20,588 nucleotides of DNA, from the IMG/VR virus record IMGVR_UViG_3300025083_000282, positions 1-20,588 of that record; one strand, written 5' to 3'. The notes below the pieces were generated by a model, which saw only the letters and a program-made list of their open reading frames with translations, ran no database searches and was not told the origin of the DNA. The DNA is from a virus. This document shows, in pieces, positions 2,643 through 10,847 of this stretch (position 1 is the stretch's first letter; each line of letters begins with the position of its first letter). The position numbers were made by a program, and so were the translations under genes.

Positions 2643-2893
2643 AGAAACACACCAAGCTCTACTTAAAAGAGATGGGATACGATGAAACAGACTTTATCCC
2701 CTGTGAGGTATGTGGAGGTAAAGCAATAGACATTCACCACATAGAAGCTCGAGGGATGGGTGGAACTAAGAAAAAAGACACTATTGAGAACCTTATGGCA
2801 TTGTGTAGAAATTGTCACTATATTTATGGTGATAAGAAAGACCTGAAAGAATGGTTGCAAGAAATACACAATTGTAAATTACTTAATATATGA
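2639..2893 (+). CDS. HNH endonuclease, minimal (84 aa)
   Basis: The sequence has the compact HNH layout with two zinc-ligand pairs: C22-x-x-C25, then D31-I-H33-H34, then N51, then C56-x-x-C59-H60. In the HNH family the first histidine pair and the asparagine form the metal-dependent nick site, while the cysteines hold a structural zinc. The gene overlaps both neighbours as ATGA. Many phages carry an HNH protein that aids terminase cutting, usually next to the terminase. This one lies 3.7 kb upstream beside recombination and modification genes, so a role in recombination or host DNA breakdown is as likely. No intron or self-splicing context suggests homing. Confidence 0.85.
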   Translation: MKKHTKLYLKEMGYDETDFIPCEVCGGKAIDIHHIEARGMGGTKKKDTIENLMALCRNCHYIYGDKKDLKEWLQEIHNCKLLNI

Positions 2894-3474
2894 AAGTTAA
2901 AATAAATAAAATCTTTTCAAACGAAAATAATCCTAGAGTCATAAAGGATTATAAATTCAATCAATTAGTTAAAAGCATTAAGGAATTTCCTGAGATGTTA
3001 GAGAAACGCCCTATTGTTGTCGATGAAGATATGACGGTACTAGGAGGCAATATGAGATTAAAGGCTTGCAGAGAGGCAGGACTTAAAGAAGTTTATATTG
3101 ACATCGCAAAGGGTTGGTCAGACACCCAAAAACAACAATTCATAATCAAAGACAACGTAGGCTTTGGAGAATGGGATTGGGATTTGTTAGCGAATGAATG
3201 GGACACCGATTCGTTAAAAAGTTGGGGTATGAATATACCTAAATGGGAAGACGCAGATGATTTTAATACACAAATTGAGGATACAGGTGATTATAACTTC
3301 CCTGAAGATCAATTAGAAAACTCTCACGTTAAAATGGTTCAACTTTATTTAACAACAAGTACTGAACCCGAATTTAAAAAATGGGAATTGGACTTGAGGA
3401 AACATTTAAAAACAGATAATCTAACTGATACTGTTTTTAAGGTTATGAAGGATGCGTATGAAAGAATCAGTTGA
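2890..3474 (+). CDS. Stand-alone ParB/sulfiredoxin-fold domain protein (194 aa)
   Basis: Residues 1-100 resemble the ParB N-terminal (ParB/Srx) domain: NENNPR at 11-16, a helix, then KRPIVVDEDMTVLGGNMRLK with G52-G53-N-M-R56, and later FIIKDNVGFGEWDWDLLANE. In phages this domain is often fused to a DNA methylase, and I recall the F-I-I-K-D-N-x-G-x-G-E-W-D-W-D segment from that context. Here no methylase follows. The remaining about 90 residues are acidic, then a lysine-rich helical tail. The domain can bind or hydrolyse nucleotides in other families; its activity here is unknown. It overlaps the HNH stop as ATGA and the following dioxygenase by 23 bases, so it may guide or assist DNA modification. 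Confidence 0.75.
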   Translation: MKVKINKIFSNENNPRVIKDYKFNQLVKSIKEFPEMLEKRPIVVDEDMTVLGGNMRLKACREAGLKEVYIDIAKGWSDTQKQQFIIKDNVGFGEWDWDLLANEWDTDSLKSWGMNIPKWEDADDFNTQIEDTGDYNFPEDQLENSHVKMVQLYLTTSTEPEFKKWELDLRKHLKTDNLTDTVFKVMKDAYERIS

Positions 3475-4363
3475 AATAATAAAATTAAAGCCGAACTTGT
3501 CGGATAATCAGGTTGACAAGCTCAAAGGCACATTACTTAGCGAAAAGGATTATAACACACTTGTAACATATAACGCAGATGTATATTGTGAAGAAACAGG
3601 ACAATGTGTAGCCAAATTTCGTAAAAAAGTAATTCCTTCTAACATTGCTTCAAACGCATACAACGCACTGAAGTCAGTTGCAATATCTTCATCAAACAGG
3701 GGTATTAGCGGAGGATCAATGAATGATAAAGGGACTTTCTCAGAACAAAGAATAAAGAAAGACGGTACAAAGTCAAACACAGCTTTGGTTGATGCTGTTG
3801 CAAGTGGTATTATAGGATACTTTGACAGGAATCCAAGAACGCCTTATTGTAGACAAACAGCTTTTAATGAAAAACAATTTAACAAGTTCAAAAAAGCCTA
3901 TCCAATAATAAAGTTTGTTGACAGAGCGTATGCTCAATTAATGCCAGAGCAATATAAATTACAAAGAGATGAAGCAGATAAAACTGCACAAGACTTTGTT
4001 ATAAATGACACAGCGTTTACAACTGTTACTGTTAATAAGAATTGGCAGACGGCCGTTCACACCGACGCAGGAGATTTTGAAAAAGGGTTTGGTAATTTAG
4101 TTGCGTTACGCAAAGGTCGTTATGTTGGAGGTTATTTTGTAGTTCCAAAATGGGGAGTTGCTTTTGATTTACAAAACTCTGATTTATTATTAGTAGACGT
4201 TCATCAATGGCACGGCAATACACCTATTAAAATTTTAGATGAAGATGCAAAAAGAATTAGCCTTGTAATGTATTATAGAAAGAATATGATTCATTGTGGA
4301 ACTTCTGAGCAAGAAACAGACCGAGCAAAACACAGAAAAGAAGGAGACAAGCTAAATGGATAA
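3452..4363 (+). CDS. TET/JBP-family 2-oxoglutarate/Fe(II) dioxygenase, base hydroxylase (303 aa)
   Basis: This is a predicted oxidase of the 5-methyl group of thymine or 5-methylcytosine in DNA. The double-stranded beta-helix core lies at about residues 185-280: H203-T-D205 (HxD iron ligands), G226-G227, a V-x-x-x-x-x-D-L-L-L-V-D strand, H254 in H-Q-W-H-G (distal iron ligand), and R268 in K-R-I-S (probable 2-oxoglutarate ligand). An N-R-G segment at 82-84 also fits phage TET/JBP proteins. All expected iron ligands are present. Start choices are ATG 3452 or 3458, both within the end of the ParB-like gene. The stop overlaps the transferase gene by 8 bases. Substrate (T or 5mC) cannot be read from sequence. 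Confidence 0.75.
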   Translation: MRMKESVEIIKLKPNLSDNQVDKLKGTLLSEKDYNTLVTYNADVYCEETGQCVAKFRKKVIPSNIASNAYNALKSVAISSSNRGISGGSMNDKGTFSEQRIKKDGTKSNTALVDAVASGIIGYFDRNPRTPYCRQTAFNEKQFNKFKKAYPIIKFVDRAYAQLMPEQYKLQRDEADKTAQDFVINDTAFTTVTVNKNWQTAVHTDAGDFEKGFGNLVALRKGRYVGGYFVVPKWGVAFDLQNSDLLLVDVHQWHGNTPIKILDEDAKRISLVMYYRKNMIHCGTSEQETDRAKHRKEGDKLNG

Positions 4364-5081
4364 GCAAACTTTTTATGACTTTTCTAAATCCCTTTTAATT
4401 ACGGGGGACATTGATCCAGATTATATACTTATAAGAGAGAAGAGCAAGGAATTAGGATTTAATAAAAAACAAGTATTTAATTGGATATTACACAAGCTCG
4501 TTATCTATGACAGTTATTCGGAGTTAGAAGTAATAACAAAACAAAAGAAAATAGAAGATGTTAAATATGGCAACGAAAGGCGAAAGAGTAAGAATAAAGC
4601 AAGAGAATACTTGAACAATATTCAAAAGGCTTTTATGGATGTAGATGTTGAGAGATTTTTTTCAATGAACGGTAATAAAATTTTTAATAAAATAAAAACA
4701 ATTAATGGATTTGGATCGTGGTCAGCTTGGAAATTTATGGATTTGATCGACTGTTGTTATGGAATTAAGGTTGACTTTGATTCAATAGATTTCAGAAAGG
4801 CTTACACTTTCCCATTAAAAGGATTATTACTTGTAAATAACCTTCCAGAAGACCTTAAAATACTAAACGACACAAAGACATACAAAAGGCTTTTAGAAAA
4901 CGCTTACAGTATCTTAAAAGACCTTAAAAACTGCGATACGCCTCACAACGGGGGCAAGGGGTTAAGATTAAATGAATTAGAAACGCTTTTGTGCAAATAT
5001 CATTCTCATATGCATAATAAATATCAATCGGGCCAAGACATACTTCACTTAAAAAAAAGAGCGAAAGAATGTATAATATAA
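4356..5081 (+). CDS. HhH-fold amino acid:DNA transferase, aGPT-PPlase-like (241 aa)
   Basis: The protein appears all-helical. A helix-hairpin-helix-like turn lies at G118-F-G120-S-W-S-A-W, followed by D129, a C-C-Y-G-I-K segment and a P at 153. The C-terminus has C193-D-T-P, then NELETLLCKYHSHMHNKY (206-223) and S-G-Q-D-I. The predicted alpha-glutamyl/putrescinyl-thymine pyrophosphorylase and related amino acid:DNA transferase clades are DNA-glycosylase-like HhH proteins with a comparable E-x-L-C-x-Y end. In characterised hypermodified phages such proteins replace the phosphate on 5-phosphomethyl-uracil in DNA with an amine or amino acid. The call leans on this layout and on the neighbours. 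An unrelated HhH DNA-binding protein is the main alternative. It overlaps the genes on both sides (8 and 13 bases). Confidence 0.6.
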   Translation: MDKQTFYDFSKSLLITGDIDPDYILIREKSKELGFNKKQVFNWILHKLVIYDSYSELEVITKQKKIEDVKYGNERRKSKNKAREYLNNIQKAFMDVDVERFFSMNGNKIFNKIKTINGFGSWSAWKFMDLIDCCYGIKVDFDSIDFRKAYTFPLKGLLLVNNLPEDLKILNDTKTYKRLLENAYSILKDLKNCDTPHNGGKGLRLNELETLLCKYHSHMHNKYQSGQDILHLKKRAKECII

Positions 5082-5857
5082 TTGGAGCGGGACTTTGCGG
5101 AAGTATGGTCGCAAAAGACTTTGATAACAAAGGAATACCTTACAGGATATTTGATGCAAAACTATCTTTTGCCGCATCAATTATAAGTGAAAATCTATTT
5201 AGTGATACTTGGTTAAAAGATGTAAGCTACATAAAAGATTCGCTTGATTTTATTCATAATAATTATTTAGTAGAGAAAAGAACTTTTGAGGGCAAATTCA
5301 TAAAAAAAGAATTATATCATTTACCTATACCTGAAGTTCTTGTGAAGGAATATATTAATGAAAAGGTTATTGATTGTGATGAAGAGGGATGCAAAACAAA
5401 AACAAAATACTACAAAGGAATAAATATTGTTTGTGCAGGATTCTTAGCAAAGGCCCTTTTTAAACTTCCTAACTTAGATGCATTAACAGGTCACGGATTT
5501 TTCTTTAATAATTTTCATACTCCAGATAGAATAAATACTTACAGACCATACACGCACGAGAAAATAATGAATTGGCACGATGGCCTTATATGGTATGGAG
5601 ACAGCACGGCAATAAGGCATAAAAATTATATGAGTAAAAGAGACTCTTATATTGCTAAAAGTCTACAAAGGCTAAAAGATTATGGGATGACAAAATATAA
5701 AAAGATTGTATTTGGTTCTCGACCTATTAATGTTAAAAATCCAAGAGAGGGAATGTTTATTAGAATAAATAAGAACAACATAATAATTAATGGAGGTTGG
5801 AAAGACGGGTTAGTTATTTACCCTTATCTTATAAAAAAACTAGAAAAATGGTTATAG
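5069..5857 (+). CDS. Compact FAD-dependent amine/glycine oxidase-like protein (262 aa)
   Basis: The N-terminus is a Rossmann dinucleotide-binding site, NIIGAGLCGSMVA (G6-A-G8-L-C-G11), with D29 ending the second strand. A later strand GINIVCAG (117-124) matches the second flavin-contacting strand, G216-S-R-P fits D-amino-acid-oxidase-like enzymes, and N241-G-G-W-K-D-G with P-Y-L resembles their C-terminal flavin loop. At 262 residues it is shorter than typical 350-400 residue members, so the substrate cap must be reduced. In phage M6-type pathways an FAD enzyme of this class acts on an amino-acid-thymidine intermediate in DNA. Its place between transferase and kinase genes supports the same role here; the substrate is inferred. 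Confidence 0.65.
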   Translation: MYNIIGAGLCGSMVAKDFDNKGIPYRIFDAKLSFAASIISENLFSDTWLKDVSYIKDSLDFIHNNYLVEKRTFEGKFIKKELYHLPIPEVLVKEYINEKVIDCDEEGCKTKTKYYKGINIVCAGFLAKALFKLPNLDALTGHGFFFNNFHTPDRINTYRPYTHEKIMNWHDGLIWYGDSTAIRHKNYMSKRDSYIAKSLQRLKDYGMTKYKKIVFGSRPINVKNPREGMFIRINKNNIIINGGWKDGLVIYPYLIKKLEKWL

Positions 5858-6354
5858 CAATAGGAGGTATTCCCGCAAGTGGCAAATCAACTTTAATGAA
5901 AAAAGTATTAAGGGAGTATGAGCCATTAAAGAGTTTTAAGTATGGTTTACTTAGGGGTGTTTATTCCGAAGCTCTGAACATATACTTTTTAGGTATTTAT
6001 GACAACTCTGTTTTTTGTGGTACAGATAAATTGAGTATGGCTGTTCAGCCTCATTTTATAAAGATGATAGATAAGTTGCCTAACGCTAAATTTGTATTTG
6101 AAGGCGACAGGCTTTTTAATCAAAGTCTATTCAATAAACAAGAATGCGAAATAATTGTAATAAAGGCAAACCAAGAAACAATAGAAAAAAGGCATAATCT
6201 TAGAGGGGATAACCAAACACCTAGATTCTTAAAAGCCAAACAGACGAAAATAAATAATATATTAAGCAAGAACCAAGTCACCGTATTAGATAACAATACA
6301 GAAAAAGAGGCTCAAGAGTTATTTAAGTATATAATTAACCGAATTAACAAATGA
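5848..6354 (+). CDS. P-loop kinase, 5-hydroxymethyluracil DNA kinase-like (168 aa)
   Basis: The Walker A motif lies at the extreme N-terminus: G7-I-P-A-S-G12-K13-S14-T. Further motifs are G58-T-D-K-L-S, F84-E85-G-D-R-L-F, and an arginine-rich lid K-R-H-N-L-R-G-D-N-Q-T-P-R. This combination, especially the E-G-D-R segment, resembles the 5-hydroxymethyl-deoxyuridine DNA kinases of hypermodified phages, which phosphorylate the hydroxymethyl group in polymeric DNA. I chose ATG 5848 because it puts the P-loop just after the first strand and overlaps the FAD gene by only 10 bases; an in-frame start at 5797 would add 17 residues and a longer overlap. Another nucleotide or nucleic-acid kinase of the same fold cannot be excluded. 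It overlaps the small terminase gene as ATGA. Confidence 0.7.
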   Translation: MVIAIGGIPASGKSTLMKKVLREYEPLKSFKYGLLRGVYSEALNIYFLGIYDNSVFCGTDKLSMAVQPHFIKMIDKLPNAKFVFEGDRLFNQSLFNKQECEIIVIKANQETIEKRHNLRGDNQTPRFLKAKQTKINNILSKNQVTVLDNNTEKEAQELFKYIINRINK

Positions 6355-6701
6355 ACAAAACCGAACAACATAAAAAAGCAATAATAGAGGCGTTGGAGAA
6401 ATCTCTGGGTGTTGTAACGACAGCTTGTAAGAATGTCGGCATAGGCAGAACACAATTTTATAATTGGTTAAAAAACGACAAGCAATTTGCAAAGGAAGTT
6501 GACGAGATAAAAAACATAGCCTTAGACTTTGCAGAAAGCCAACTCCATAAACAGATAGGAGAGGGATCAACAGCCGCAACAATATTCTACCTAAAGACCA
6601 AAGGCAAACAAAGAGGTTATGTTGAGAGACAGGAAGTTCATCAAATGGGTGATAATCTCTTTGAGGTTGAAATACTAGGCGGTGAAGATTCAGACGAATA
6701 A
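6351..6701 (+). CDS. Terminase small subunit (116 aa)
   Basis: A helix-turn-helix covers about residues 8-43: V-V-T-T-A-C-K-N-V-G-I-G-R-T-Q-F-Y-N-W-L, typical of small terminase DNA-recognition domains. The middle (50-85) is helical with TAATIFYLKTKG, which I recall from small terminases of this type, and the end is acidic. The small subunit binds packaging-initiation sites and stimulates the large subunit. It overlaps the kinase gene by four bases and the large terminase gene by 20. This places packaging under the same translation-coupled operon as DNA modification. Confidence 0.8.
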   Translation: MNKTEQHKKAIIEALEKSLGVVTTACKNVGIGRTQFYNWLKNDKQFAKEVDEIKNIALDFAESQLHKQIGEGSTAATIFYLKTKGKQRGYVERQEVHQMGDNLFEVEILGGEDSDE

Positions 6702-7833
6702 AGTCTACAAACACCTCCTCAATTCTAACAAGAAGATTGTTGTTGAGCAGGGAGGAACGAGATCAGGTAAAACGTATAACATCCTGTTGTGGATTATCCT
6801 GAACTATTCAACACGCAATAAAGGAAAAGTAATAACCATATGTAGAAAGTCATTCCCATCTCTTAGAGCTTCTGTAATGAGAGATTTCTTTGAGATACTA
6901 AGAAACAATGGAGCATACTTTGAAGAGCTTCACAACCGATCTAATCACGAATACAACCTAAACGGAAACGTAGTTGAGTTCATCTCATTAGACCAACCAC
7001 AAAAGATCAGAGGTCGTAAAAGAAATTTACTATATATAAACGAGGCTAACGAATTATTCTTTGAGGATTGGCAACAGTTAATCTTCAGGACAGATGGAAG
7101 GATAATATTAGACTACAACCCGTCAGACTCTTTCCATTGGATTTATGATAAGGTAATACCCAGAGAGGATTGCGACTTCTTTCAAACAACATACAAAGAC
7201 AACCCTTTCCTTGATCAGGGCATAAGGTCAGAGATAGAAAGGTTAAGAGGTACTGATGAGGATTATTGGAGGATATACGGACTAGGAGAAAGGGGAGCAA
7301 GCAGAGCAACGATCTTTCAATTCAATATAGTTGATGAACCTAAAGGTGAGGTTGTCTCGTTAGGGTTGGACTTTGGATTTACAAACGATCCGACAGCACT
7401 TGTAAAAGTTTACAAACACGAAGGGGATTTATACATTGAAGAAATGCTATATCACACAAGGCTAACCAATTCTGACATAAGCCAAAAACTAAAGGAATTA
7501 GGATTGACCAGATACGATGAGATATGGGCAGATTCCGCAGAGCCTAAAAGCATAGAGGAGCTTCACAGGTTTGGATGGAATATAAAACCAACAGCCAAAG
7601 GACAAGACAGCATAATGGCAGGAATCGACATATTAAAACGTCATAGAATCTTTGTAACAAAAAGCAGTACGAACCTAATCAAAGAAATGCAAAACTATTC
7701 TTGGCAAGAGGATAAGAACGGAAACCTACTCAACAGGCCCGTTGATAAATGGAATCACGCAATAGATGCTATTCGATACGCTACCTTTAACAGGATGAGC
7801 CGACCTAATTACGGAAGGTATGCAATAAGATAA
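6682..7833 (+). CDS. Terminase large subunit, PBSX-type, GTG start (383 aa)
   Basis: This is the ATP-driven packaging motor and nuclease. Walker A is G24-G-T-R-S-G-K30-T31 and Walker B is L-L-Y-I-N-E121-A. The C-terminal RNase H-like nuclease has acidic residues at D230 (GLDFGF), D284 (WADSAEP) and D362 (NHAIDAIRY). D230, D284 and D362 would coordinate the two metals. The layout and length match the PBSX/Terminase_3 group. The start is the GTG at 6682, which gives a short lead before the first strand and a 20-base overlap with the small subunit. Substrate DNA may be hypermodified by the upstream cassette. Confidence 0.95.
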   Translation: MKIQTNKVYKHLLNSNKKIVVEQGGTRSGKTYNILLWIILNYSTRNKGKVITICRKSFPSLRASVMRDFFEILRNNGAYFEELHNRSNHEYNLNGNVVEFISLDQPQKIRGRKRNLLYINEANELFFEDWQQLIFRTDGRIILDYNPSDSFHWIYDKVIPREDCDFFQTTYKDNPFLDQGIRSEIERLRGTDEDYWRIYGLGERGASRATIFQFNIVDEPKGEVVSLGLDFGFTNDPTALVKVYKHEGDLYIEEMLYHTRLTNSDISQKLKELGLTRYDEIWADSAEPKSIEELHRFGWNIKPTAKGQDSIMAGIDILKRHRIFVTKSSTNLIKEMQNYSWQEDKNGNLLNRPVDKWNHAIDAIRYATFNRMSRPNYGRYAIR

Positions 7834-7854
7834 AAACAAAAAGTTATTTAAGAG

Positions 7855-8601
7855 ATGGAATTGAAAGTAATTGTACCAACATCATTGGATGAAATCACCC
7901 TAGCGCAATATCAAAGGTTTGCGAAGATAGAAGGTGACGAAGAGTTTCTTACAAAGAAAATGTTGGAGATATTTTGTAATGTCCCAATGGAGAGATTACC
8001 AAGCATTCGATTTAAAGACGTTTCTAAGGTGTTTAAGCGCATATCTACAATGATGAATGGTAAGCCTAAGCTGAAACAAAGATTTAATCTAGGAGACAAA
8101 GAATTTGGATTCATTCCTTCACTTGATGATATTTCGTATGGTGAGTTTGTTGATCTGGATACATATCTAACCGACATACAAAACCTCCATAAAACAATGG
8201 CAATACTATATCGACCTGTAACGGGTAAGGTAGGAAAGCATTATGTAGTTGAGCCTTATGAATCTTCTGATAAGTATTGCGACCTAATGAAGGATGCTCC
8301 AATGGATGTTGTAATGGGTGCTGTGGTTTTTTTTTGGACTTTAGGAAAAGAGTTGTTGATGGCTACCCTGAACTCTTTGGAGAAAGAGACGAACAAGACT
8401 ACTCGCAAGAATCTCAATTCTCAAATACTTGGGGATGGTATAACACCATCTATACCCTTGCTAAAGGCGATGTTAGAAGATTTGACGAGGTTGCAGGATT
8501 ATCCCTTCACAAGTGCCTCACTTTCCTTGATTATGAAAAGCAAAAAAACCAAGTCGAAAAAAACCTTATCAAAACAAACATTAAATGAGACAGTTTTATA
8601 A
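7855..8601 (+). CDS. Tail assembly chaperone-like protein, unshifted frame (248 aa)
   Basis: The first 160 residues look like a real domain, with FGFIPSLDDISYGEFVDLDT near residue 90 followed by MAILYRPVTGK, as I recall from Bacteroidota phage tail-chaperone-like proteins. The reading frame then enters a run of nine T at 8327-8335. Without slippage it continues as W-T-L-G-K-E-L-L for 88 more residues, ending in a lysine-, serine- and threonine-rich tail at TAA 8599-8601. That tail overlaps the next gene by 17 bases, out of keeping with the four-base junctions elsewhere. The -1 frame product is listed separately. No Shine-Dalgarno sequence is present; TTATTTAA at 7844-7851 precedes the ATG. 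Confidence 0.7.
   Translation: MELKVIVPTSLDEITLAQYQRFAKIEGDEEFLTKKMLEIFCNVPMERLPSIRFKDVSKVFKRISTMMNGKPKLKQRFNLGDKEFGFIPSLDDISYGEFVDLDTYLTDIQNLHKTMAILYRPVTGKVGKHYVVEPYESSDKYCDLMKDAPMDVVMGAVVFFWTLGKELLMATLNSLEKETNKTTRKNLNSQILGDGITPSIPLLKAMLEDLTRLQDYPFTSASLSLIMKSKKTKSKKTLSKQTLNETVL
8328..8378 (+). promoter_or_regulatory. Probable -1 ribosomal frameshift site with downstream hairpin
   Basis: The zero-frame codons GTT TTT TTT TGG give a T-TTT-TTT slippery heptamer at 8328-8334. Twelve bases later AAAGAGTT (8347-8354) pairs perfectly with AACTCTTT (8371-8378) around a 16-base loop, a possible stimulatory stem. A -1 slip joins residue 160 to the conserved downstream frame. A homopolymer length error is the alternative explanation. 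Confidence 0.55.
8334..8588 (+). CDS. -1 frame extension of the tail assembly chaperone (84 aa after the slip)
   Basis: Read from 8334 in the -1 frame, the protein continues LDFRKRVVDGYPELFGER, an acidic linker, then NTWGWYNTIYTLAKGD with R-R-F-D-E-V and L-H-K-C-L-T-F-L. The W-G-W-Y-x-x-I-Y-x-L-A-x-G-D segment is one I recall from Bacteroidota phages next to the tail genes, and it looks more protein-like than the zero-frame tail. Its TGA (8586-8588) overlaps the next ATG as ATGA, the junction used throughout this operon, which argues strongly that ribosomes reach this stop. The full frameshifted product would be 244 residues, close in length to the unshifted one, unlike the usual short and long pair. 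Confidence 0.65.
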   Translation: MDFRKRVVDGYPELFGERDEQDYSQESQFSNTWGWYNTIYTLAKGDVRRFDEVAGLSLHKCLTFLDYEKQKNQVEKNLIKTNIK

Positions 8602-9052
8602 CATAACAAAAACCATAAAGGACACACTTGAAGCTAACAGCCAAGTGAACGTCGTAACCTTTGGCGACATCTTTGACGTAGACCTAAACAAGCAAACGAT
8701 CTTTCCCTTATCTCATATAATGGTAAACCAAGCAACGATAGAAGGTCAGGTTGTAAGGGTTAGTCTATCGGTTATGTGTATGGATGTAATTGACGAGCTT
8801 AAAGAGGATTTAAGAGACCAGACAGAACCCTTTTACAATAACAACAACGAGCAAGATATTCTAAACACTCAATTGCAAGTTATTAATGACCTTGTAATGA
8901 AGCTCAGAAAAGGACAACTATACACCGACCTTTATCAGCTTGATGGTAACCCTGTTTGTACACCTTTTAACGAGAGGTTTGAAAACTTGCTTACAGGATG
9001 GACAGCGACGTTTGATGTGCTATTACCTAACACCGAAATCTCTGTTTGCTAA
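8585..9052 (+). CDS. Putative tail completion/terminator protein (155 aa)
   Basis: The protein contains NVVTFGDIFDVDLNKQTIFP at about residues 22-41, then a strand S-V-M-C-M-D, an N-E-Q-D-I-L-N-T-Q-L segment, and R-F-E-N-L-L-T-G-W-T-A-T-F-D-V at the end. I recall this pattern from unassigned structural proteins of Bacteroidota phages near the tail genes. Size, mixed alpha/beta character and place just before a gp10-like protein fit a tail terminator or joining protein. It does not show catalytic motifs. The start overlaps the -1 frame stop of the preceding gene as ATGA, and the stop shares one base with the next ATG. Confidence 0.6.
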   Translation: MRQFYNITKTIKDTLEANSQVNVVTFGDIFDVDLNKQTIFPLSHIMVNQATIEGQVVRVSLSVMCMDVIDELKEDLRDQTEPFYNNNNEQDILNTQLQVINDLVMKLRKGQLYTDLYQLDGNPVCTPFNERFENLLTGWTATFDVLLPNTEISVC

Positions 9053-9585
9053 TGAGTCGTCAAGACAACATAGAGATGGCATTAGATAAGTTTGGTAAAT
9101 CTGTTATCAAGCAAGCGAGAAGCAACCTAACAAAAAAGAAAAGGAACGTATCAAGCAAATTGTACAACTCTTTAGATTATAAGGTTGATGTATCTAAAAA
9201 AGGCACATCCTTTTCCTTTGCTTTTGAGATGGAAGATTATGGCGAATACTTAGACAAAGGAGTAAAGGGTAAAAACTCATCAGCTAAAGCACCTGACAGT
9301 CCTTATCGTTTTGGAACAGGATCAGGAAGAAGGGGAGGCTTGAGAGATTCAATACCAGAATGGGTAAGGAGAAAAAGGTTTCAATTTCAAGATAGAAAGA
9401 CGGGTAAGTTTATGAGCTATGACAGCACAGCCTTTTTGATTGCTCGTTCTATCTATCAAACAGGATTACCAACAACTAACTTTTTTACAAGACCTTTCAA
9501 CCTAGCATTTAACAAACTCCCAATCGAGATAACAAAGGCATTTCAACTAACCCAAGAAGAGTTTAAAAAATTTACTGAAAAATGA
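9052..9585 (+). CDS. HK97 gp10-like head-tail/tail completion protein (177 aa)
   Basis: The N-terminal half is basic and helical, then EMEDYGEYLDKGVKGK, then a basic, proline-bearing region and IARSIYQTGLPTTNFF. The Y-x-x-Y-L-D/E-x-G-V motif followed by a conserved terminal F-F-T-R-P resembles gp10-family proteins that join heads or complete tails. I take ATG 9052, which shares one base with the preceding TAA, instead of an in-frame TTG at 9046 that would add two residues. The end overlaps the next gene as ATGA. Function is assigned from motif and position. Confidence 0.6.
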   Translation: MSRQDNIEMALDKFGKSVIKQARSNLTKKKRNVSSKLYNSLDYKVDVSKKGTSFSFAFEMEDYGEYLDKGVKGKNSSAKAPDSPYRFGTGSGRRGGLRDSIPEWVRRKRFQFQDRKTGKFMSYDSTAFLIARSIYQTGLPTTNFFTRPFNLAFNKLPIEITKAFQLTQEEFKKFTEK

Positions 9586-10847
9586 GTACACCAACATCAG
9601 CAATTCCCGTAAGCGTAAGAATGTCGCGAAGCCCGATTTTTTTAACGGGTAAAAATAACGCATTAGCAAACGACGCTTTAAACTCGATGGACTGCGCTGT
9701 GCAAATATACACAGGAGCAAAAACAGCAACAACAACAGCCAAGTACAATCTCTCAAAATCCGTATCAGTAAACGAGATAATAAACTTTGAATTAAGCAAT
9801 CTAATCAGAGAGGAATTTGTACACGGTATGGGTAAATTTAATATAACGTCTCCGAGTGCTTCTGAAGTGGGTGAGGTGTTATGGGTTAATCTTACGGGAG
9901 GTTGGAACTACGATGATGCAGGTAGCCCTACTATTGGAAACTGGGCAACAGGAACGTCAGGTGCGTTTTTAGTAACGGATGGATGGACAAAAAGATTAGA
10001 AGCTCAAAACAGACAAACAACAGATGCTCGATTAACGATTGACAGAACGCATCAAGTATATTCAGCAAATAGAGAAGCGTTAGCCGCTTTGTATTTAGCA
10101 GGCAATGGTCTTAACGCTTTATCCTACGAAATAGATGGTACGGAATATTGGTATGTCCTTGAGGATGAATTAGGATTCGCAAACAACTCTAACGAAAGCC
10201 AGAATAAGGTGATATACATTCCTAGTGGTGTGTTGAGCGTAGGCGATTATGTAGGAGTAACACCAACAAGCACTTACAAAATAAACCTCATAACAAATAG
10301 CGAGGGAGCTGACTACAAAGGAAGAGTCGAAACAGATGGTGGAACGGTTGAGGCTTGGGGATGTCTTATGAACGAGATTGACGATCTAGGAGGCCACGAC
10401 AAAATCACCCACAATTACGAAGTTATCTGTGAGCCTAAATTTACTCCTGAGATTATTCAGTATGTTAACAGATACGGGGTAAGTGATTATGTAACCTTCT
10501 TTAAGAAAAGCACAGAGCAAGGCAATTTTACAAACGAGCAATACAACCGAAGTATTTACGCTGATGGATTTACCGAGCCATCTTTTACAACAGCCAAATA
10601 CCAAGATTACAATATCAATTCAAGAAACAGCATAACCCTAAACACAGGATGGGTTGAGGAGGCTTACAAAGACATCATTGAGGAGATTCTTATGAGTGAA
10701 GATGTCAGGATATTAGAAAACGGAACATATCGAAATCTAAGTCCTGTGAGAGGATCGGTTGAGTACCAAAAGGGAGTCAACGACAAGACTATCAATTACA
10801 CAATGAGTTTCAATTTAGGACACGATCAGAGAAACGACATAAAATGA
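9582..10847 (+). CDS. Tail structural protein, unknown role (421 aa)
   Basis: The protein is beta-rich and polar, with many threonine, asparagine and glycine residues, no signal peptide and no enzymatic motif. It opens with PVSVRMSRSPIFLTGKNN and has aromatic-glycine strands at about 100-130 and NSITLNTGWVEEAYKDIIEE near 350. The character fits a virion tail-tip or baseplate protein. It lies between the tail completion genes and a 674-residue tail protein, with four-base overlaps on both sides, so the two large products are probably made in similar amounts and may form one complex. I do not recognise a named family. Confidence 0.65.
   Translation: MSTPTSAIPVSVRMSRSPIFLTGKNNALANDALNSMDCAVQIYTGAKTATTTAKYNLSKSVSVNEIINFELSNLIREEFVHGMGKFNITSPSASEVGEVLWVNLTGGWNYDDAGSPTIGNWATGTSGAFLVTDGWTKRLEAQNRQTTDARLTIDRTHQVYSANREALAALYLAGNGLNALSYEIDGTEYWYVLEDELGFANNSNESQNKVIYIPSGVLSVGDYVGVTPTSTYKINLITNSEGADYKGRVETDGGTVEAWGCLMNEIDDLGGHDKITHNYEVICEPKFTPEIIQYVNRYGVSDYVTFFKKSTEQGNFTNEQYNRSIYADGFTEPSFTTAKYQDYNINSRNSITLNTGWVEEAYKDIIEEILMSEDVRILENGTYRNLSPVRGSVEYQKGVNDKTINYTMSFNLGHDQRNDIK

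Follow-up and report, generated by a model that had tools for sequence, protein, structure and literature searches.

A TET/JBP-containing phage gene cassette predicted to convert thymine to 5-aminomethyl-dU within DNA, with an exchangeable middle module

A cassette of overlapping genes in a DNA record from IMG/VR encodes a TET/JBP dioxygenase, an amino acid:DNA transferase, an FAD-dependent enzyme and a P-loop kinase, and we consider it probable, at roughly 70%, that the cassette serves a post-replicative thymidine hypermodification in which thymine is converted to 5-aminomethyl-dU. This reading draws on the protein families, motifs, folds and gene context that we observed, and on the exchange of the middle part of the cassette in a near-twin of the phage.

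The DNA that we analysed, called the window below, is the whole 20,588-base record IMGVR_UViG_3300025083_000282, which is classed as linear and is probably a phage fragment. Its plus strand carries recombination genes, an HNH gene, a ParB-like gene, the four cassette genes, the terminase subunits and head/tail genes. The phage is marine and, as judged from its proteins, its host is likely to be flavobacterial, since Nonlabens phage P12024L has the nearest counterpart of the major-capsid-like protein and Flavobacterium phages give good matches to the large terminase. A preliminary description of this DNA had noted four consecutive overlapping genes at 3452–6354. We found four successive plus-strand ORFs exactly there, with mutual overlaps of 7–13 bases, and the families that it had assigned to them (a TET/JBP dioxygenase from an HxD...H motif, an HhH transferase, an FAD oxidase and a P-loop kinase) all held up when the proteins were compared by profile, by sequence or by fold. 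The characteristic motifs were retained in 50 of 52 unique TET homologues, 52 of 54 transferases, 25 of 25 FAD enzymes and 55 of 55 kinases, so that the four-gene finding is not a matter of chance; one of the two TET homologues without the standard motif is a fragment and the other has a longer insert. NCBIfam profiles yielded no informative hit to any of the four.

The gene set of four was nevertheless incomplete. A ParB-like gene (2890–3474, plus strand), missed in the preliminary description, precedes TET in nearly all relatives. Its product matches Pfam ParB_N with an E value of 1.6e-4, below the cut-off, and phrog_620 with 2e-23. Where a TET locus has sufficient flank, the gene almost always lies immediately upstream of TET, as it also does in the actinophages CaiB and Tonitrus; it belongs to the cassette as a fifth gene, the first in order. 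The protein possibly has a DNA binding or targeting role, and we picture it as probably helping the enzymes to engage or choose DNA sites. A small HNH protein is encoded immediately upstream of it (2639–2893) and is found in some, not all, related cassettes. Directly downstream of the cassette, the small and large terminase subunits (6351–7833, plus strand) are its constant neighbours, and this position just upstream of the terminase suggests that modification takes place around packaging.

The TET/JBP gene (3452–4363, plus strand) encodes an Fe(II)/2-oxoglutarate dioxygenase. Residues 120–277 match Pfam Tet_JBP (PF12851) with an E value of 9e-28 and a score of 97 bits against a curated cut-off of 34.9. 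In its catalytic core (4058–4255, plus strand), the iron triad, arranged as H203-x-D205 and H254, and the 2-oxoglutarate arginine, R268, were invariant in an alignment of 17 diverse homologues. A phrog_6059 label for this protein, 'queuine tRNA-ribosyltransferase', was dropped, as the Tet_JBP assignment is far stronger. From the gene context, the enzyme is predicted to hydroxylate the methyl group of thymine in DNA; a structure search found no solved thymine-specific TET/JBP structure.

The next gene (4356–5081, plus strand) encodes an amino acid:DNA transferase of the ADDT or aGPT-PPlase2 type. The protein matches Pfam ADDT (PF18724, E 2.4e-9), has a helix-hairpin-helix glycosylase-like fold and contains an invariant E-T-x-L-C segment. 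By phmmer it matched the solved structure of the PaMx11 glycinyltransferase (8z2m, E 9.6e-9) and the entry 25qc (E 1.4e-11), and its AF2 model (pLDDT 93.9) aligned with 8z2n at a VIA Z of 20.9 and an rmsd of 3.0 over 231 residues, the next-best fold, mostly helix-hairpin-helix DNA glycosylases, reaching Z 8.8. By sequence and modelled structure, the transferase is thus a homologue of PaMx11 gp46, a glycinyltransferase. When it was used as a single protein to scan IMG/VR, only the window's own phage was found.

The FAD-dependent lyase/oxidase (5069–5857, plus strand) has no Pfam match of its own. In tblastn searches it matched FAD oxidoreductases of Pseudomonas and Stenotrophomonas phages (E 4e-7 to 5e-5), which in the Pseudomonas phages adjoin a transferase gene. 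Its AF2 model (pLDDT 89.4) gave Foldseek E values of about 1e-20 to 8z79 and 8z2o, both of PaMx11 gp47, and aligned with gp47 at a VIA Z of 30.2 and an rmsd of 2.1 over 258 of 262 residues, compared with Z 21.3 for the next family. The protein alone also detected 8z2o by phmmer (E 9.6e-4); where PaMx11 itself was part of the alignment, the profile matches to 8z2o and 8z2m were circular and were discarded. On these sequence and model comparisons, the flavoenzyme is a homologue of PaMx11 gp47, the N-alpha-glycinylthymidine FAD lyase. The FAD family proposed earlier stands, with the PaMx11 lyase as the best match in place of the M6 route that had been cited. PaMx11 gp47 also resembles the ThiO and MnmC profiles, and MnmC makes the same removal in tRNA, from 5-carboxymethylaminomethyl-U to 5-aminomethyl-U.

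The last gene (5848–6354, plus strand) encodes a P-loop kinase, proposed to be a 5-hydroxymethyl-dU DNA kinase. Its ORF opens with a TTG at 5797, and the homologues begin at the ATG at 5848, which makes an overlap of 10 bases with the FAD stop. The protein has the Walker A motif GIPASGKS and an EGDR motif, and is homologous to the kinase of Microbacterium phage Kozie (E 1e-15), itself a Ploopntkinase3 (PF18751, E 4e-18). Kinase homologues accompany TET in other phages. The similarity to PaMx11 gp49 is weak and local (E 0.02), and a profile search of the PDB with the kinase returned generic P-loop NTPases only. A phrog_800 label, 'terminase small subunit', was dropped because the small terminase subunit is encoded by the following gene. 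Public labels of the homologues include 'terminase small subunit' or 'adenylate kinase' for kinases, 'SNF2 DNA repair protein' for TETs and, for the FAD lyase of PAKlein3, 'VFDB virulence factor protein'.

We propose that the TET/JBP enzyme would hydroxylate the thymine methyl group within phage DNA to give 5-hydroxymethyl-dU, and that the P-loop kinase would phosphorylate the hydroxyl to give 5-phosphomethyl-dU. The ADDT-family transferase would displace the phosphate with the amine of glycine, forming 5-N-alpha-glycinyl-thymidine, from which the FAD enzyme, by oxidising the glycine C-N bond, would release glyoxylate and leave 5-aminomethyl-dU. The modified base would protect the progeny DNA against host nucleases. 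5-aminomethyl-uracil, the end product that the preliminary description had thought possible, is also what PaMx11 gp46 and gp47, the nearest homologues to have been characterised, are reported to yield.

The middle of the cassette varies among relatives. The common architecture in IMG/VR is ParB-TET-variable part-kinase-terS-terL, in which the variable part consists of transferase-FAD in 15 contigs, of the transferase alone in 3, and of a glutamine amidotransferase, with or without a GNAT gene, plus a divergent transferase in about 36. The four-gene order of the window occurs in 15 IMG/VR contigs, and the order differs in L077–L082 and L096. The last of these (L096:3717–7960; QZIP01000028.1, from a MAG labelled Parcubacteria) has a ParB-transferase-FAD-kinase-TET cassette and is possibly a phage contig in that MAG, its host assignment being uncertain. 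Comparison by blastn with the near-twin L024 matched window positions 2664–4362 at 89.7% and 5852–6473 at 95.8%, with no match in between. The stretch swapped as a unit (4363–5851, plus strand) spans the TET stop to the kinase start, transferase-FAD being replaced by GATase-GNAT-transferase; this extent makes TET and the kinase look like common steps and the middle interchangeable. The two exchanged window genes have the lowest G+C among the genes compared (0.302–0.306, versus 0.374 for the window). These two common steps are naturally linked in L104 (PLET01000113.1, a Gammaproteobacteria MAG), where a single ORF of 1006 aa (6569–9589) comprises TET at residues 10–337, a middle region without a Pfam match and the cassette kinase at residues 817–993, with an ADDT gene about 5 kb upstream.

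In L024 (1699–3561) and about 35 similar contigs, the protein encoded between TET and the kinase is a class-II glutamine amidotransferase (GATase_7, E 1e-8; PurF-like, E 5.5e-13), and the module also has a GNAT protein similar to PaMx11 gp48 and a divergent ADDT protein (E 1.9e-19). With a class-II amidotransferase and an acetyltransferase side by side, the alternative module may also install an amine, taken from glutamine-derived ammonia. A similar argument has been made for the amidase-bearing CmoY proteins in phage cytosine modification (PMC12783734). A wider proposal, whose chances we put a little short of even, is a JBP-like route in which thymine is hydroxylated in DNA by TET, phosphorylated, and converted to 5-aminomethyl-dU through one of two modules that can stand in for each other: glycine and the FAD lyase, as in the window, or glutamine-derived ammonia via the class-II amidotransferase and the divergent transferase, optionally followed by acetylation, as in L024 and about 35 further contigs. 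We found no description of the amidotransferase swap in the literature searched, the limited coverage of which makes this weak evidence of absence.

The same thymine pathway might end in another product, through a different amino acid or through extra tailoring outside the fragment, for example acetylation to 5-acetylaminomethyl-dU. The window transferase and flavoenzyme share just about 20–24% identity (about 22%) with PaMx11 gp46 and gp47, so the amino acid used could differ. The record being a fragment, genes for a methyltransferase, an acetyltransferase or a hydroxymethylase could be present outside it; PaMx11 has an acetyltransferase adjoining its FAD gene, and a GNAT gene is usual in relatives with the alternative module. 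However, the FAD enzyme specifically matches the glycinyl-thymidine lyase in structure, and an acetyltransferase was present in the cassette in none of the 15 contigs with the same architecture. We regard a different end product as unlikely, and 5-aminomethyl-dU as the probable one.

The distribution of hydroxymethylating enzymes bears on the base that is modified. Records with the flavoenzyme contained either TET or a thymidylate-synthase-like (TS-like) hydroxymethylase, never both. Searches of whole records found no TS-like hydroxymethylase in any of 17 window-type relatives (17–34 kb) or of 5 further flavoenzyme records of the TET type, whereas PaMx11-type flavoenzyme records had it in 8/9 and TET in 0/9. 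In all, 21 flavoenzyme loci were TET-only and 9 TS-only (Fisher p 7e-8, a value that overstates independence as the records are related). TETs of differing clades (window-like, P12024L-like and actinophage-like) co-occur with the flavoenzyme. No TS-like gene was seen in the window, itself a fragment; Kozie, CaiB, Tonitrus and P12024L, deposited as complete genomes, have neither TS-type nor C5-methyltransferase genes. No C5 methyltransferase was found in 13 of the 15 near relatives, the profile giving a weak partial match in the other 2, or in HTVC112P. The positive controls in these searches, PaMx11 and Melnitz, were both detected.

These results also bear on a cytosine pathway, in which TET would oxidise 5-methylcytosine made by a methyltransferase of the host or an unseen one of the phage, and the kinase, transferase and FAD enzyme would build an aminomethyl-type cytosine. 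Experimentally studied phage TETs reportedly act on 5-methylcytosine (Burke 2021), and in Melnitz a C5 methyltransferase, TET and a kinase of the window-kinase family lie close together. The C5 methyltransferase is nonetheless missing from most near relatives and from Kozie, CaiB, Tonitrus, P12024L and HTVC112P, TET replaces a uracil-specific hydroxymethylase in the flavoenzyme records, and the nearest transferase and lyase structures act on uracil-derived bases, all of which make a cytosine pathway quite unlikely. In view of the displacement of the TS-like enzyme by TET, of relatives without TS and mostly without a C5 methyltransferase, and of tailoring enzymes that match structures with uracil substrates, we favour thymine as the starting base. 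To our knowledge, TET/JBP enzymes all act on nucleic acid, which argues against a TET acting on free thymidine nucleotides, with the polymerase inserting hmU as in M6-type phages. Although 5hmdU is believed to enter the DNA of M6, ViI and phiW-14 as a nucleotide (PMC6449724), the window gene is not adjoined by a set of nucleotide kinase or pyrophosphatase genes and the neighbouring steps are predicted to act on DNA, which leaves this last reading highly improbable.

Same-clade TETs also occur elsewhere with a different partner. In L002 (6007–8272), L068 (5980–7708) and L071 (5863–8751), a TET-associated glycosyltransferase comes after TET (PF20691 in L002 and L071, a similar protein in L068), with no C5 methyltransferase in the record; L071 also encodes a radical SAM protein. 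Such pairs could possibly produce a base-J-like glycosylated hmU in phages.

If the conversion of thymine to 5-aminomethyl-dU within DNA is as we propose, phages can build amine-bearing thymines without an altered nucleotide pool, by editing thymine already in DNA. For this they would use the class of enzyme behind human 5hmC and trypanosome base J, in the form of a phage TET that works on thymine. Compact enzyme sets that place a primary amine at DNA thymines would be a labelling and sequencing tool, and near-identical phages would clearly have traded tailoring modules, suggesting selection for changing the decoration.

The 5-NmdU pathway of Pseudomonas phage PaMx11, with gp46 as glycinyltransferase and gp47 as FAD lyase, was reportedly described by Lee in 2021 and Wen in 2024. 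PDB titles name gp46 a 5-PmdU glycinyltransferase and gp47 an N-alpha-GlyT FAD-dependent lyase, and PMC11946847 cites the paper on these enzymes (Wen 2024, gkae784). The PaMx11 transferase and flavoenzyme have homologues in the window, as judged by both sequence and fold; each phage also has a kinase, and the predicted intermediates are the same. PaMx11, however, obtains hmU via a thymidylate-synthase-like enzyme and has an acetyltransferase; in the window, where no TS-like gene was found, TET/JBP is proposed instead. The cassette has a precedent in genes 1–4 of Microbacterium phage Kozie, which encode TET, transferase, FAD enzyme and kinase in the same order directly before the terminase. The Kozie genes differ in being annotated as hypothetical, their proteins are about 21–32% identical to those of the window, and no ParB gene lies upstream in the record. 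Rhodococcus phage Tonitrus (PMC11955845) and Gordonia DR-cluster phages such as CaiB (PMC9302106), described in terms of thymidine hypermodification or nucleotide modification, likewise have ParB, TET, aGPT-PPlase2 and a kinase upstream of the terminase, but their last gene is an oxidoreductase not tied to the gp47-type lyase. CaiB gene 5 and Tonitrus gene 8 reached an hhalign probability of 54.5% over 46 columns only, and we do not claim them as flavoenzyme homologues. In base J synthesis (JBP1/2 and a glucosyltransferase, in kinetoplastids), a TET/JBP enzyme begins by hydroxylating thymine in situ (PMC6449724). Hydroxylation in DNA is also the first step proposed here, but base J is glucosylated, whereas the hydroxyl in the window phage is predicted to be phosphorylated and then aminated. 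Iyer et al. are said to have predicted, in 2013, hypermodification operons fed by TET/JBP enzymes, with TET-made hydroxymethyl pyrimidines as starting points for further chemistry, as in the window. Their paper is cited in PMC6449724. The combination of TET with a gp47-type lyase was not described in the literature searched, which given its limited coverage is weak evidence of absence. The idea that TET feeds hypermodification, the Kozie gene order and the actinophage cassettes are thus known already; what very probably differs here is a first step by TET, as opposed to a nucleotide made beforehand in the phages with characterised pathways.
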